DNA from: Pseudoflavitalea sp. G-6-1-2
Lineage (GTDB): Bacteria; Bacteroidota; Bacteroidia; Chitinophagales; Chitinophagaceae
Assembly: GCF_012927185.1 (NCBI RefSeq)
Contig: NZ_JABBGB010000002.1
Coordinates: 1,488,001-1,552,000 of the forward strand
Reading direction: 5' to 3'
Length of the DNA stretch: 64,000 nt
Shown: piece by piece, positions 57,595 to 61,702 of the stretch
Numbering within the stretch: the first letter of the stretch is position 1
How the letters are laid out: each line of letters begins with the position of its first letter
The notes under the pieces: model-generated
What the model saw: the letters and a program-made list of their open reading frames with translations, nothing else
Told to the model about the DNA's origin: nothing
The model's database searches: none
Program-made: the position numbers and the translations under genes

Positions 57595-58398
57595 TTACCA
57601 GCCTTTTACAGCGCCACCTTTGAAAACCTTTGCTGCGGCTTGCGCTACAGCTTCGGACTGATAGGCTTTTACGAAATTCTTTACTTTCTCTTCGTCTTTG
57701 TTATCCTGCCTGGCAGCGATCACATTTACGTAAGGAGATTCTTTTTCTTCTTTCAGCAATCCGGTTTCTGCATCGAGACCGGCCTGAGCTGCGAAGTTAT
57801 TGTTGATGATGGCCAGCACCACTTCTTTATCGTCGAGTACCCGCGGCAGCTGAGGCGCTTCGATCTCCAGGATCTTCAGGTTCTTCGGATTTTCAACGAT
57901 GTCCGTTACTTTGGGAAGAAGCCCTACTCCATCTTTCAGTTTCAGCAATCCGTTTTTCTGCAACAGCAGCAATGAGCGTCCGCCATTGGTAGGATCATTG
58001 GGAATAGCAATGGTATTGCCGTCTGCGAGTTCGCTGATATTTTTGATCTTTCTCGAATAAGCTACAATCGGATACACGAATGTATTGCCTACCACCGCCA
58101 GTTTGTATCCGCGCTGTTTCGATTGTGCTTCGAGATAAGGCACATGCTGAAATGCATTCACATCGATATCACCCTGATTCAGCGCTTCGTTGGGAACTAC
58201 ATAATCGTTGAAGGCAACCAGCTCCACATCGAGGTTGTATTTTTCTTTTGCTTCTTTTTTTGCTGCCTCGGCAATCTCGCGCTCCGGTCCGGAAGTGATG
58301 CCAACTTTGATATGATTGGGGTCGCTTTTACTGGCGGCGCCTCCGCAGGATGCGAGTGACACCAATGCAGCCAGCGCTATAAATTGAAACGTTTTCAT
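57595..58398 (-). CDS. metQ: Methionine ABC transporter substrate-binding lipoprotein
   Basis: 267 residues, NlpA/MetQ family. Lipobox LASC with Cys18, then IKVGITSGPEREI, the first strand of the fold. Conserved segments include FNDYVVPNEALNQGDIDVNAFQH, IAIPNDPTNGGRSL and NNFAAQAGL. It captures methionine and hands it to MetI/MetN. Third gene of metN-metI-metQ, 17 bp after metI. The gene ends 31 bp from a convergent gene. Confidence 0.96.
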   Translation of the reverse strand: MKTFQFIALAALVSLASCGGAASKSDPNHIKVGITSGPEREIAEAAKKEAKEKYNLDVELVAFNDYVVPNEALNQGDIDVNAFQHVPYLEAQSKQRGYKLAVVGNTFVYPIVAYSRKIKNISELADGNTIAIPNDPTNGGRSLLLLQKNGLLKLKDGVGLLPKVTDIVENPKNLKILEIEAPQLPRVLDDKEVVLAIINNNFAAQAGLDAETGLLKEEKESPYVNVIAARQDNKDEEKVKNFVKAYQSEAVAQAAAKVFKGGAVKGW

Positions 58399-58415: not shown

Positions 58416-59069
58416 TTATCTGTGATTAAACTTTTTCGAGAGGCGGTCGCCTGCAAACTGAATGATGAACACCAACGCCACCAGCAATACCAATACCGAA
58501 TTCATGATAAAGTGGTCGTAGCCCACATATCCGTACTGATAACCGATCTGTCCTAATCCACCTGCTCCTACTGCACCGCCCATGGCTGAATATCCCACCA
58601 GCGTAATCAAGGTAATGGTGGCATTATTGATCAGCGAGGGCAATGCTTCTGGCAGCAACACTTTAGTTACGATCTGAAACGGACTTGCACCCATTGCTCT
58701 GGCAGTCTCAATTAAACCATGTGGTACTTCGAGCAAACTGTTCTCTACCAGCCTCGCTATGAACGGCGCAGCTCCGATGCTCAGCGGCACCAGTGCAGCC
58801 CAAACTCCAATGGAAGTGCCCACTATGGCGCGTGTGAATGGGATCATCCACACAATAAGGATGATGAAGGGAATAGACCGGAACACATTCACCATTGCCG
58901 ACATGGTCCGGTGATAAACTCCGTTTTCCAGCAGTTGTCCCTTTCTGGTTAAGAAGAGCAGGATGCCTGCAGGCAGTCCCAATACAAATCCGAAGAAGCC
59001 GGAAGTAAAAGTCATGAAAATGGTTTCCCATAATCCTTTCAGTAAAAGCGGGGCCGTTGTATCAAGCAT
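58416..59069 (-). CDS. metI: Methionine ABC transporter permease
   Basis: 217 residues with five to six predicted helices. The EAA loop GLIETARAMGASPFQIV followed by LPEALPSLINNATITLI is conserved, as is the C-terminal GYSAMGGAVGAGGLGQIG. It forms the inner-membrane channel with MetN. It overlaps the end of metN by 8 bp, consistent with translational coupling. Confidence 0.96.
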   Translation of the reverse strand: MLDTTAPLLLKGLWETIFMTFTSGFFGFVLGLPAGILLFLTRKGQLLENGVYHRTMSAMVNVFRSIPFIILIVWMIPFTRAIVGTSIGVWAALVPLSIGAAPFIARLVENSLLEVPHGLIETARAMGASPFQIVTKVLLPEALPSLINNATITLITLVGYSAMGGAVGAGGLGQIGYQYGYVGYDHFIMNSVLVLLVALVFIIQFAGDRLSKKFNHR

Positions 59070-60090
59070 ATCCTTTCAGTTCGTTTTTTATTTTACGCTG
59101 GTTGAAATACTCTACCGCTCTGTCGTTGGTTTCTTTGTTTCCTTTCAGATGCAACAGCAGTTTCCCGAAACTGGCTCTTCCGAGATATTCGATATCTGCT
59201 TTGATCAGTTTGTAAGGGATTTTGAATTTGTTGTACACCGTGTCGATCAACTCATCGAAGGCGATGTTCCCGGTAAGCTCCAGTTCTATGAGCGGGGTTA
59301 ATCCTTCTGCCTGTTCCTGTTTCATGTTTATATAAATTTCATGGGGTAATGTGATAGTACCTGTATTGATGAACCGGTTGATCACCGGATGATTTCTGTC
59401 TGTGAGCAATTGCTCCAAAGTGCCCTCTGCTACCAGCTTTCCGTGATCGATCACTGCTATCTGGTTACAGATCGATTTCACTACATCCATTTCGTGCGTA
59501 ATGAGCAGTATAGTCAGTTTCAATCTCCGGTTGATATCGCGCAGCAGTTCCAGAATGCTTTGCGTGGTAGCGGGATCCAGTGCACTCGTTGCTTCATCGC
59601 AGAGCAACAGATAAGGATCGTTCGCGAGTGCGCGGGCGATAGCCACTCTTTGTTTCTGTCCACCGGAAAGACTGCGTGGATATTCGTTTGCCTTTTCTTC
59701 CAATCCTACTATCTGCAACAGTTCCGTAACTTTTTCGCGGATGATATGTTGCGGCACATTATCCAGTTCGAGCGGCAATGCGATATTGCCATAGACCGTG
59801 CGCGATGAGAGCAGGTTGAAATGCTGAAAGATCATTCCGATCTTCTTTCGTTGCGCAGCCAGTTGCTTTGAAGGCAGCACCGTAAGATCGATCCCGTTTA
59901 CGATGATCTGTCCGGTATCTGGCTTTTCCAGCAGGTTCACGCATCGGATCAGCGTGCTCTTTCCCGCACCGGAACTTCCGATGATGCCTACGATATCGCC
60001 TTCTGAAATTTGGAGATTGATATTGTCCAGCGCCTTGAATGGCTGATCTTTCTGCCTGAACGTTTTCGATATATTCCTGATCTGAATCAT
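59062..60090 (-). CDS. metN: Methionine ABC transporter ATP-binding protein
   Basis: 342 residues. Walker A GSSGAGKST (about 38-46), Q-loop, signature LSGGQKQRVAIARAL, Walker B LLLCDEATSALD and a C-terminal NIL domain (about 265-342) that senses methionine. First gene of metN-metI-metQ. Its 5' region is cut short: an IS3 element starts 31 bp upstream of the ATG, and the pre-insertion neighbour was an attenuator-like terminator; see findings. Confidence 0.96.
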   Translation of the reverse strand: MIQIRNISKTFRQKDQPFKALDNINLQISEGDIVGIIGSSGAGKSTLIRCVNLLEKPDTGQIIVNGIDLTVLPSKQLAAQRKKIGMIFQHFNLLSSRTVYGNIALPLELDNVPQHIIREKVTELLQIVGLEEKANEYPRSLSGGQKQRVAIARALANDPYLLLCDEATSALDPATTQSILELLRDINRRLKLTILLITHEMDVVKSICNQIAVIDHGKLVAEGTLEQLLTDRNHPVINRFINTGTITLPHEIYINMKQEQAEGLTPLIELELTGNIAFDELIDTVYNKFKIPYKLIKADIEYLGRASFGKLLLHLKGNKETNDRAVEYFNQRKIKNELKGYA

Positions 60091-60118
60091 GGATGGATGC
60101 CGTTAACTATTGATAAAC

Positions 60119-60121
60119 CTG
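60119..60121. repeat. Left target-site duplication CTG of the IS3 element
   Basis: CTG at 60119-60121 is repeated at 61475-61477 just outside the other inverted repeat. A 3-bp duplication is normal for the IS3 family. Confidence 0.8.
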
Positions 60122-60146
60122 TGTCTTGTCCTAAAAAAAGTTGACT
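60122..60146. repeat. IS3 element left inverted repeat
   Basis: 25 bp starting TGTCTTGTCC and ending GTTGACT. It matches the right repeat at 23 of 25 positions by eye. Confidence 0.88.
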
Positions 60147-60184
60147 GATTATAAAAATCGAAGCTATATAAGCACTTGGGCAAA

Positions 60185-61063
60185 TTAAAGCTCAGGTGCT
60201 TTTTTCTTCCAGCTTCTGGATTTGATTTTTCTTTGCTGATGCATTTGATTGGGAGTTAGCATTTCACAACTCATGTGAGGCCTTTTTTCGTTATACAAAT
60301 AAATAGCCTGACGCACCTGTAAGTTTACTTGTTCAATATCTTCAAAGCTTTCATCCAACCCAAATTCGTCTTTCAATATTCCATTAACCCGCTCAGCCAG
60401 AGCGTTATCATAGGGGCTACCATCTTCAGTCATGCTAATCAATATTTTACTTGATTTCAGCTGGTTCACATAGGCAGTACTGCAGTATTGCAAACCACGG
60501 TCTGAATGATGGATCAACTTCCCTTTGTATTGTCTACTCCTGACTGCATCCTGCAAGGCTTTTACGGTATGTCCTGAAGAGAGGTCCTTACTTACATTGT
60601 AACCCACTATCTTTCGGGAATAAGCGTCAGTGAGTAAATGCAAATAGCAATAACCAGCACCTACACTCAGATAAGTTATATCAGCGGCCCAGACCTGTTC
60701 AGGACGTTTTATTTCCAAGCCTTTTAACAGGTTGGGATGCTTACGCATCCAGTGTCGGGAGTCTGTTGTTTTTACATACCGCTTTTTTCGACTGACTAAC
60801 AAGCCTGTGCTGCGCAATAACGAAAAAAGTTTGTCACGACCTAAACCTAATTGTTCTTTCTGCAATTCAGGCTTTAGGATCTTATACAATTTCCTGGTTC
60901 CCAAACGGGGCATTTGTGCACGGATAGCCAATACCTTACTTTTTACTACCGATTCATGACAGGCTTTTAAATGCCTGTTACGAATCGACTTGTAATAAGC
61001 CTGTTTGCTATAGCCTAGTTGCCGGCAAACTGCCGTAAGATTTATTTCTTTTTCTGCTGCCAA
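60185..61063 (-). CDS. IS3 family transposase OrfB (DDE integrase core)
   Basis: 292 residues in the -1 frame relative to orfA; the frame opens with a TTG, so production through frameshifting is more likely than an independent start. HTH_21-like N-terminal region, then the rve core with the catalytic triad Asp in VWAADITYLS, Asp in IHHSDRGLQY and Glu in LAERVNGILKDEFG. Complete, without internal stops. Confidence 0.94.
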   Translation of the reverse strand: MAAEKEINLTAVCRQLGYSKQAYYKSIRNRHLKACHESVVKSKVLAIRAQMPRLGTRKLYKILKPELQKEQLGLGRDKLFSLLRSTGLLVSRKKRYVKTTDSRHWMRKHPNLLKGLEIKRPEQVWAADITYLSVGAGYCYLHLLTDAYSRKIVGYNVSKDLSSGHTVKALQDAVRSRQYKGKLIHHSDRGLQYCSTAYVNQLKSSKILISMTEDGSPYDNALAERVNGILKDEFGLDESFEDIEQVNLQVRQAIYLYNEKRPHMSCEMLTPNQMHQQRKIKSRSWKKKAPEL

Positions 61064-61434
61064 CTCCTGGACAACTCGGCCTCGATTTTTTTTATGACAT
61101 CTGTTTCCAACTCCCGATTAGTTATTTCGATCAGCTTATCATAAACCTTTAACTTCAGCTCTGCTGCTTCCAGTTGCTTTTCCAATTCCTTGATTCGTTG
61201 TTTTTGAGGATCTTTCATGGGACGACCAATACTTGAAGGTGACTCATAGGCAAATTTACCATACTTCCGACACCAATCAAGAACCCGACTTTTTCCCTTA
61301 ATCCCGTACTTAACCTGGAGTGCGTCCTTACTCACGCCCCCGCGCTCAAACTCACGCACTACTTGCCTTTTAAAACTTTCGCTGTACCGTGCTACGGGGA
61401 CACTTACTTTCAATTTAACTCGTACCTGTTTCAT
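61042..61434 (-). CDS. IS3 family transposase OrfA (HTH)
   Basis: 130 residues from the ATG at 61434 (MKQVRVKLKV); an upstream TTG lies in the inverted repeat. The helix-turn-helix RYSESFKRQVVREFERGGVSKDALQVKYG binds the ends, and a leucine-zipper-like RIKELEKQLEAAELKLKVYDKL follows. It overlaps orfB by 22 bp; the run GAAAAAG near the end of orfA is a likely -1 frameshift site making the OrfAB fusion transposase. Confidence 0.92.
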   Translation of the reverse strand: MKQVRVKLKVSVPVARYSESFKRQVVREFERGGVSKDALQVKYGIKGKSRVLDWCRKYGKFAYESPSSIGRPMKDPQKQRIKELEKQLEAAELKLKVYDKLIEITNRELETDVIKKIEAELSRSWQQKKK

Positions 61435-61449
61435 TATTGAACAATTTAT

Positions 61450-61474
61450 AGTCAACTTTTTTCAGGACGAGACA
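61450..61474. repeat. IS3 element right inverted repeat
   Basis: 25 bp; read on the minus strand it begins TGTCTCGTCCTG. The CTG duplication follows at 61475-61477, directly next to the T-run of the attenuator-like terminator. Confidence 0.88.
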
Positions 61475-61478
61475 CTGT

Positions 61479-61509
61479 AAAAAAAATCCCCGGTAGAATG
61501 TACCGGGGA
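61479..61509 (-). terminator. Strong terminator after the 37-codon ORF, likely attenuator of metNIQ
   Basis: Perfect 9-bp inverted repeat TCCCCGGTA / TACCGGGGA (61487-61509) with 5-nt loop, followed by eight T on the minus strand. It starts 27 bp after the small ORF stop. A short segment in the ORF (ACCGG in the Lys-Thr-Gly codons) can pair with its 5' arm, a possible antiterminator. In the uninterrupted sequence it would sit 30-40 bp upstream of metN. Confidence 0.88.
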
Positions 61510-61535
61510 CGAGTTCAATATTGTTGATATAACTG

Positions 61536-61649
61536 TCATTTACCCAATACACCGGTTTTGTTTGTCCAGCAGCAATACATCATCATCTTCATCTTCGGAG
61601 AAGAAGTGACTGCATTGCAGTTACGGGTAATATTGAAGTTAGTGCTCAT
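61536..61649 (-). CDS. 37-residue Met/Cys-rich leader peptide (probable metNIQ attenuator)
   Basis: ATG at 61649, TGA at 61536, preceded by the A-rich run AAAAAGAA typical of Bacteroidota starts. Residues 20-27 read MKMMMYCC: four Met and two Cys codons in eight, right where a ribosome would stall under Met/Cys shortage. A consensus promoter lies upstream and a strong terminator downstream. Without the IS3 element, the next gene would be metN. No similarity to a functional protein is seen. The leader-peptide reading is inference from position and composition; a free-standing small peptide cannot be excluded. Confidence 0.75.
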   Translation of the reverse strand: MSTNFNITRNCNAVTSSPKMKMMMYCCWTNKTGVLGK

Positions 61650-61671
61650 TTCTTTTTCTAAAAGTCCACCG

Positions 61672-61702
61672 CAAAAGTAGGGTAATAAATGAACCAGCCA
61701 AA
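61672..61702 (-). promoter_or_regulatory. Consensus Bacteroidota promoter of the leader ORF
   Basis: On the minus strand TTTG (61702-61699) and TACTTTTG (61679-61672) are separated by 19 bp, an exact match to TTTG-N19-TAnnTTTG. Transcription would begin about 15 nt before the ATG at 61649. Confidence 0.75.

Follow-up and report, generated by a model that had tools for sequence, protein, structure and literature searches.

The 64,000-nt stretch of the Pseudoflavitalea sp. G-6-1-2 genome analysed here (the window) poses a question about the methionine operon metNIQ. A 37-codon open reading frame (ORF) rich in Met and Cys codons, equipped with its own promoter and an intrinsic terminator, is separated from metN by an insertion sequence (IS) of the IS3 family. 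Is this short ORF the leader peptide of an attenuator that serves metNIQ, and if so, which amino acid does it read? A preliminary description of this DNA had proposed leader-peptide attenuation with methionine as the chief signal. The first half of that proposal has held up: we put the probability that a ribosome-mediated transcription attenuator controls metNIQ at about 0.85, and the reading is well supported because relatives without the IS share the arrangement, the peptide keeps a Met/Cys core although it diverges elsewhere, and an antiterminator is predicted repeatedly. The second half has fared less well, as the putative attenuator most likely senses cysteine and probably methionine in addition.

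Leaders before metN in the window and in relatives

Positions are those within the window, and the leader, the IS3 element and metNIQ all lie on its minus strand (Table 1). The parts first described, namely the 37-codon ORF, the TTTG-N19-TACTTTTG promoter, the MKMMMYCC stretch and a terminator with eight T, are all borne out by the sequence, and MKMMMYCC supplies the clustered control codons of a trp-type attenuator. The promoter is the only 10/10 match within 61720-60060 to the Bacteroidota-type consensus; base shuffles of the same region lead one to expect 0.64 matches at 9/10 or better. Its TACTTTTGCGGTGGACT segment has identical copies ahead of the leaders of three relatives (G001, G002 and G004). 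A search of the window's own genome found no second copy of the leader, the next-best match reaching only E 0.18 and containing an internal stop.

Other Chitinophagaceae without the IS show the same arrangement. A MetN search of 394 genomes of this family returned 13 at E<=1e-90, that of the window included, and in nine of them the metN operon opens with a short ORF rich in Cys/Met and a terminator (the window's own, G001, G002, G345, G112, G063, G151, G303 and G126). In G001, G002, G345 and G112, metN starts 20-22 bp after the first T run of the terminator, a spacing similar to the 32 bp reconstructed for the window without the insertion (see below). The terminator of G063, which was missed by the leader detector and set by hand, lies some 260 bp upstream of metN. 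An EamA transporter is the first gene of the operon in G151 (by Pfam) and in G303 and G126 (by likeness); DUF4395-like genes precede metN in these three, and the leader stands before the first gene of the operon. In G004 (L018 / L170), of the same genus as the window, leader and terminator are retained, but of metN, judged by sequence, nothing beyond the C-terminal NIL portion follows, which makes this a degraded operon.

Among the best 80 MetN loci from named genomes, 20 belong to Bacteroidota by their titles and 19 of these could be judged, the remaining one being a Flavobacterium contig that begins 21 bp before metN. Leader and terminator were found at 15 of the 19 (11/11 Chryseobacterium and four Flavobacterium). 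The F. pectinovorum leader was spotted by eye, and its terminator, missed by the detector, was set by hand. A Dyadobacter ORF encoding MMYCCMP (L153) was rejected as a leader, having no terminator.

Profile searches extended the survey. A leader profile matched 13 genomes at E<=0.01 in a phylum-wide sample of 395, and seven of these carry a leader with a terminator: the window's own, five (L199, L200, L201, L203 and L204) in which metN, or an EamA-like gene and metN, follow by sequence, and L202, whose contig stops after the leader terminator. The detector picked up no leader-terminator pair at the six weaker matches (E 0.0027 to 0.0095). Profile A1, run against the 394 family genomes, gave matches in 30 at E<=0.05, nine of them with a leader taken as real. 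The best matches in the other 21 were attributed to chance, no Cys/Met ORF plus terminator being found there by the detector, even in looser form; a second A1 match in G343 had no locus and fell outside that check. Extra weak matches (16 genomes, E<=10) were likewise rejected for lack of a leader with a terminator. The promoter-proximal pattern TACTTTTGCNGTRGACT matched seven genomes with up to two mismatches about as often as its reversed control did, and its exact matches there numbered four, every one a leader.

How specific such leaders are was gauged with a strict detector (at least 5 Cys+Met per 10 residues, an ORF of at most 60 aa, a terminator at most 60 nt away) run on 117 Bacteroidota loci, or 1281 strand-kb with overlapping loci counted repeatedly. 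All 45 matches fell at leaders of metN operons, in one case with a degraded metN, or of operons headed by a cysM-like gene, which argues that the leader is no chance find; the flanks serve as the control, because many of the 117 loci had been fetched for having a leader. A looser setting (4 per 10, 150 nt) gave one match elsewhere in 20 loci (L001, plus strand). The concern was raised at the outset that the ORF might also stand before genes that have nothing to do with methionine; outside metN, the Met/Cys type was found only before a cysteine-synthase-like operon of a single genus, itself sulfur-related. An intrinsic terminator lies between the ORF and the first structural gene for each of the 25 metN leaders assembled.

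Table 1. Features of the metNIQ leader region and operon (positions within the window)
Feature	Position	Strand	Remarks
Promoter	61672..61702	-	TTTG (61702-61699), N19, TACTTTTG (61679-61672); read and recomputed from sequence
Operator-like palindrome, 21 bp	61663..61683	-	ACCCTAC-TTTTGCG-GTGGACT; overlaps -7 box; two mismatches to AGTCTAY-N7-RTRGACT of relatives
Leader-peptide ORF	61536..61649	-	37 aa, MSTNFNITRNCNAVTSSPKMKMMMYCCWTNKTGVLGK*; similar leaders in relatives
Control codons MKMMMYCC	61569..61592	-	core rich in Cys/Met in alignments A1 and A2 (23 rows each)
Predicted antiterminator strand	61532..61553	-	GGUGUAUUGGG ... GACAGU; overlaps stop codon; would pair with 5' arm and loop of terminator
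Intrinsic terminator	61479..61509	-	stem TCCCCGGTA-CATTC-TACCGGGGA (61509-61487), T8 (61486-61479)
Target-site duplication CAG, leader side	61475..61477	-	CTG on plus strand
IS3-family element	60122..61474	-	1353 bp; imperfect inverted ends TGTCTCGTCCTGAAAAAAGTTGACT / TGTCTTGTCCTAAAAAAAGTTGACT
IS3 orfA	61042..61434	-	partial NCBIfam NF033516 match, 35.7 bits (cut-off 160); no Pfam match
IS3 orfB, transposase with rve domain	60185..61063	-	Pfam PF00665; NF033516 IS3 family transposase, 255.8 bits, above cut-off (160)
Target-site duplication CAG, metN side	60119..60121	-	CTG on plus strand
metN	59062..60090	-	Pfam ABC_tran and NIL; best NCBIfam TIGR02314, 438.7 bits, below cut-off 499.7
metI	58416..59069	-	NCBIfam NF008049, above cut-off
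metQ	57595..58398	-	NCBIfam NF008285, above cut-off; Pfam NlpA lipoprotein

A predicted antiterminator

In the mechanism proposed for this locus, RNA polymerase would start a little way past the -7 box, with a ribosome translating the 37-codon ORF. With charged tRNA-Cys and/or tRNA-Met in good supply, the ribosome would reach the stop codon and cover the antiterminator strand; once that strand is covered, the terminator would form and transcription would end. When Cys or Met is scarce, the ribosome would instead stall in MKMMMYCC. A Cys codon in the A site would leave the front edge of the ribosome (assumed to lie 13 nt beyond the codon's first base) short of GGUGUAUUGGG, which would then be free to pair with the 5' arm and loop of the terminator and let RNA polymerase continue into metNIQ. 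In the window, transcripts antiterminated in this way would have to cross the 1.35 kb of the co-directional IS before reaching metN.

The fold analysis that the preliminary description had called for yields a predicted antiterminator complementary to the 5' arm of the terminator, and the prediction recurs in relatives. When the stop region of each of the 25 metN-operon leaders (24 nt up to the end of the stop and at most 12 nt after it) was paired with the 5' arm and loop of its own terminator, the mean duplex energy was -11.6 kcal/mol, as against -7.9 with the terminators of other clades. The window's own leader, in which GGUGUAUUGGG pairs with arm and loop, gives -16.2 kcal/mol (p 0.022 against dinucleotide shuffles). 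The nascent RNA was also folded. The segment taken began 13 nt beyond the first base of a stalled A-site Cys codon, chosen from the stretch with the highest Cys/Met density, and ended with the terminator loop; between 40 and 100% of the 5' arm was paired in 25/25 leaders, the figure for the window being 100%. Although the sequences themselves differ among lineages, complementarity between the stop region and the leader's own terminator arm recurs in most of them, so an antiterminator that excludes the terminator is predicted, several single cases being weak.

This variability bears on one other explanation, in which a ligand-binding riboswitch, for instance of the S-adenosylmethionine (SAM) type, overlaps the leader. 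Terminator-based control before a methionine gene is typical of riboswitches. That said, the terminator and antiterminator sequences differ among lineages, and no Rfam family reaches its gathering score in the 64-kb window, new conserved RNA structures lying outside that search. A riboswitch is accordingly given hardly any credence.

The tail of the leader looks like an RNA feature. Three Flavobacterium leaders encode ELAYI or KLAYI before the stop codon, and in F. pectinovorum a similar RNA follows an earlier stop. G004 and G001 differ in the frame of a stretch that ends in GUACC; the GGUAAU after it is again read in the same frame in both, and much of the RNA is kept. The N-terminal part behaves differently: in 10 equal-length Chryseobacterium-type leaders, variation at codon positions 1 to 3 is 0.18, 0.28 and 0.39, a third-position excess that fits translation. 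This excess, together with the Cys/Met-rich composition, could also be expected of a functional small peptide, for example a metal-binding one, with the terminator merely marking its 3' end. Such a peptide is very improbable here, since the core and tail lack the excess, the part that mainly recurs besides the core is the RNA-complementary tail (even after a stop, as in F. pectinovorum), and each of the strict detector's matches precedes a metN or cysM operon.

Several observations, including two given below with the cysM leaders, weigh against attenuation. The preliminary description had made the case depend on IS-free relatives keeping the ORF, and most do; of the 13 family genomes, no leader was found before metN in three (G019, G210 and G364), and G188 retains a promoter and a terminator ahead of metN but lacks a leader ORF in the interval. 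Nor was a leader found at one Dyadobacter, two Pedobacter and one Apibacter metN locus of the named genomes. Two of the 25 metN leaders have hand-set terminators (G063 and F. pectinovorum). The combined duplex value, p = 1.0e-5 by Fisher's method over 12 clades, each represented by its median dinucleotide-shuffle p, comes from windows set after the sequences had been viewed and from clades that are not independent draws, and many single values are weak (G112 0.39, G303 0.38, G126b 0.61). Variation by codon position shows no third-position excess in the core (0.13, 0.18, 0.10) or the tail (0.32, 0.29, 0.35). Finally, the completed terminator beats the antiterminator at equilibrium in 25/25 leaders (for the hand-set terminator of G063, with 4/5 pairs). 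Antitermination would therefore have to be kinetic and co-transcriptional, as it is in classical attenuators.

Cysteine and methionine as probable signals

A second class of operon serves as an internal comparison. In G307, one of the profile matches, two leaders and two terminators in series precede an operon of genes for a PALP enzyme, JAB, ThiS/ThiF-rhodanese, AhpC and DUF4395; the best NCBIfam match of the PALP enzyme is cysM (TIGR01138), below cut-off. A search of 388 family genomes with this CysM-like protein returned 29 loci in 28 genomes at E<=1e-110, and a Cys-rich leader with a terminator stands at all 29. Twenty-six of these are single Cys-run leaders, some of them interrupted (CCCTCCC or CVHVCCC, for example), and three are tandem Met/Cys sets from one genus (two in G307, one in G223). 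The window's own genome has such a locus (G000:C1:2021144 region; L267 and L270), where a Cys-run leader, MLNTHTNKSCCCCCCKTHARVIWVGCSLGLS, and an intrinsic terminator precede a cysM-like gene followed by JAB-like and MoeB-like ORFs, both names resting on similarity to G307. In cysM leaders the RNA that follows the Cys run, for example GGGTGGAGG, can pair with the terminator's GCTCCACC, but the shuffle test is weak, with p<0.05 in 7/26, p<0.1 in 10/26 and a median of 0.18.

The two classes of leader differ in methionine. A Met codon is present in the 12-residue core of 25/25 metN leaders and of 3/26 cysM leaders tested (Fisher p 1.5e-11, too small a value owing to relatedness); that comparison left out L241, L269 and L243 and took the G223 row (L242) with a shortened start, the full leader having MMM. 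With all cysM rows counted, the contrast is 25/25 against 6/29. The detector requires Cys+Met and so favours Met, the second of the points counted above against attenuation, yet the same kind of detector also found the Met-poor cysM leaders. Cys and Met occur together in the core of 25/25 metN leaders. None of the conditions set at the outset for rejecting attenuation applies cleanly, that of varying Met codons included: their number varies, and at least one is kept in every metN-operon core. Read from the codons, the putative leaders of cysteine synthesis carry Cys codons, and those of methionine uptake carry both Met and Cys codons.

Does the attenuator then listen to cysteine only, the Met codons being incidental or serving re-initiation? 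Just two alignment columns are nearly invariant, one Cys and the other the start Met; the stall geometry fits a Cys codon; Cys-run leaders precede cysM-like operons, one of them in the window's own genome; and L202 has Val where Met follows Cys elsewhere (ICVP). These points suggest a signalling role for cysteine no smaller than that of methionine. They make a cysteine-only switch a serious possibility, though still an unlikely one, for the cores of the metN leaders differ from those of cysM in their Met content as counted above, MM or MMM runs immediately precede Cys in several lineages, and metNIQ is a methionine importer by its families. Sensing of both amino acids at metNIQ is preferred.

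Two complete leader-terminator units stand in series before sulfur operons in G151 (L051), G126 (L053), G307 (L195, L196) and G223 (L242). The first terminator begins TCCACCG and the second GGCTTT in G151, G307 and G223; G126 has different ones. Among single leaders, those from the window's genus bear a loose resemblance to the first tandem kind, and those from Chryseobacterium to the second. A serial pair might give a sharper response. Taken further, Bacteroidota may possess a family of attenuators for sulfur amino acids whose codons act as an 'address', Cys runs marking cysM-JAB-MoeB type operons and Met/Cys cores, single or serial, marking methionine uptake, such that one RNA integrates two amino acids and, in the window, has downstream of it an IS3 element whose transcription may depend on sulfur starvation. 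The odds on this wider proposal appear to be about even.

Leader-peptide attenuation is a textbook mechanism for Trp, His and the branched-chain amino acids. The classical trp, his and leu attenuators share with the present element control codons, an antiterminator near the leader stop and an intrinsic terminator; the differences here lie in two sulfur amino acids as control residues, an importer as target and, in some genomes, two serial units. Poly-Cys attenuators are reportedly the subject, by its title, of a study of mycobacteria by Canestrari et al. (2020). In Streptomyces lividans TK24, the passages of PMC8079986 on metL describe a proposed attenuator upstream of metNIQ without a typical Rho-independent terminator. 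Its short Met/Cys-containing leader peptide (MSTTSDRTPATEATTTPGARCMCRRMCAF) resembles those described here; it differs in belonging to Actinobacteria, in its leaderless start and in the stress laid on Met and Thr, whereas an intrinsic terminator and an antiterminator are predicted here. Short ORFs with runs of Cys codons also precede cysteine genes in Actinobacteria, much as the cysM leaders do, and the relevant portions of PMC1262725 report no terminator hairpins for them, suggest Rho, and report no conserved RNA structures for actinobacterial methionine operons; the Bacteroidota leaders differ in having intrinsic terminators and, before metN, in mixing Met and Cys (PMC1262725).

Within the phylum, leader-peptide attenuation is mentioned in general terms in passages of PMC9723704 and PMC7366714. 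It has been suggested for amino-acid biosynthesis operons of F. psychrophilum, of the same phylum as the window; the main-text passages concerned name no Met/Cys leader or metN (PMC9723704). Neither "Bacteroid-" nor "Flavobacter-" occurs in PMC2965389. The open-access literature, the scope of this search (subscription journals and supplements lying outside it), yielded no account of Bacteroidota attenuators of the Met/Cys or poly-Cys type, and the parts of it consulted describe leader attenuation by sulfur amino acids for Actinobacteria only, without intrinsic terminators. The attenuator-like element is, on the comparative evidence, real, recurrent and of a known general kind; no earlier description was found of such an element in this phylum or with this residue mix, and it comes with intrinsic terminators and, in some genomes, in tandem. 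If the reading is true, the Met/Cys attenuator at metNIQ and the Cys-run one at cysM would offer a direct test of one RNA reading two amino acids, a pair of biosensor parts, and an explanation for small ORFs ahead of sulfur operons.

The insertion and the operator-like palindrome

The element between terminator and metN has the marks of the IS3 family, namely two overlapping ORFs, an rve transposase, inverted ends and a short target duplication, with orfA below the family cut-off. The preliminary description had it flanked by CTG duplications (CAG on the minus strand), with metN 31 bp beyond its end and about 30-40 bp after the terminator once the flanks are joined. All of this was confirmed, and removal of the element and one duplication places metN 32 bp after the last T of the terminator. 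The insertion sits after T8, is co-directional with metN and leaves the attenuator intact; the metN, metI and metQ reading frames are all open.

Searched against its own genome (6.1 Mb, 6 contigs), the element matched only itself. In none of the other loci read was a comparable element seen between the leader and its operon, a statement about those loci, the element itself not having been searched in other genomes. There is no outward promoter site of 9/10 or better near its metN-side end, and one 9/10 promoter-like site lies within it (61281-61251). From this layout, metN would now require either transcripts that pass the terminator and cross the 1.35-kb IS or a promoter inside the IS. That it has broken control, as the preliminary description proposed, is an inference. 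The insertion may have weakened control of metN, or may have placed the IS itself under the same switch; in either case it amounts to a natural experiment on a regulated operon.

The -7 box of the leader promoter is overlapped by the 21-bp palindrome of Table 1, and similar palindromes (AGTCTAC-N7-GTAGACT-like) overlap or precede the promoters of many leader-bearing operons in relatives. They are also found at metN operons without a leader (a Pedobacter and G364). The palindrome is a possible operator for a sulfur repressor, and main control could be exerted there, the leader being a minor or decayed layer. Genome-wide counts speak both ways: matches outnumber those of the reversed control in G418 (17 to 7) and G345 (10 to 6), but not in G303 (5 to 5), G424 (16 to 31) or the genome of the window itself (19 to 25). 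A dominant repressor would moreover leave the leader, its core codons, the terminator and the antiterminator unexplained, and it is judged improbable; attenuation remains the preferred account of metNIQ control. In the genome-wide search, the site at 61663-61683 was not among the matches at one mismatch, and five exact palindromes turned up in the window's own genome (G000:C1:225080, C1:896878, C1:2242116, C3:350829 and C4:67839). One exact palindrome lies between a siroheme-synthase-like gene, which adjoins a sulfite-reductase-like one, and a receptor-like gene, all named by eye.

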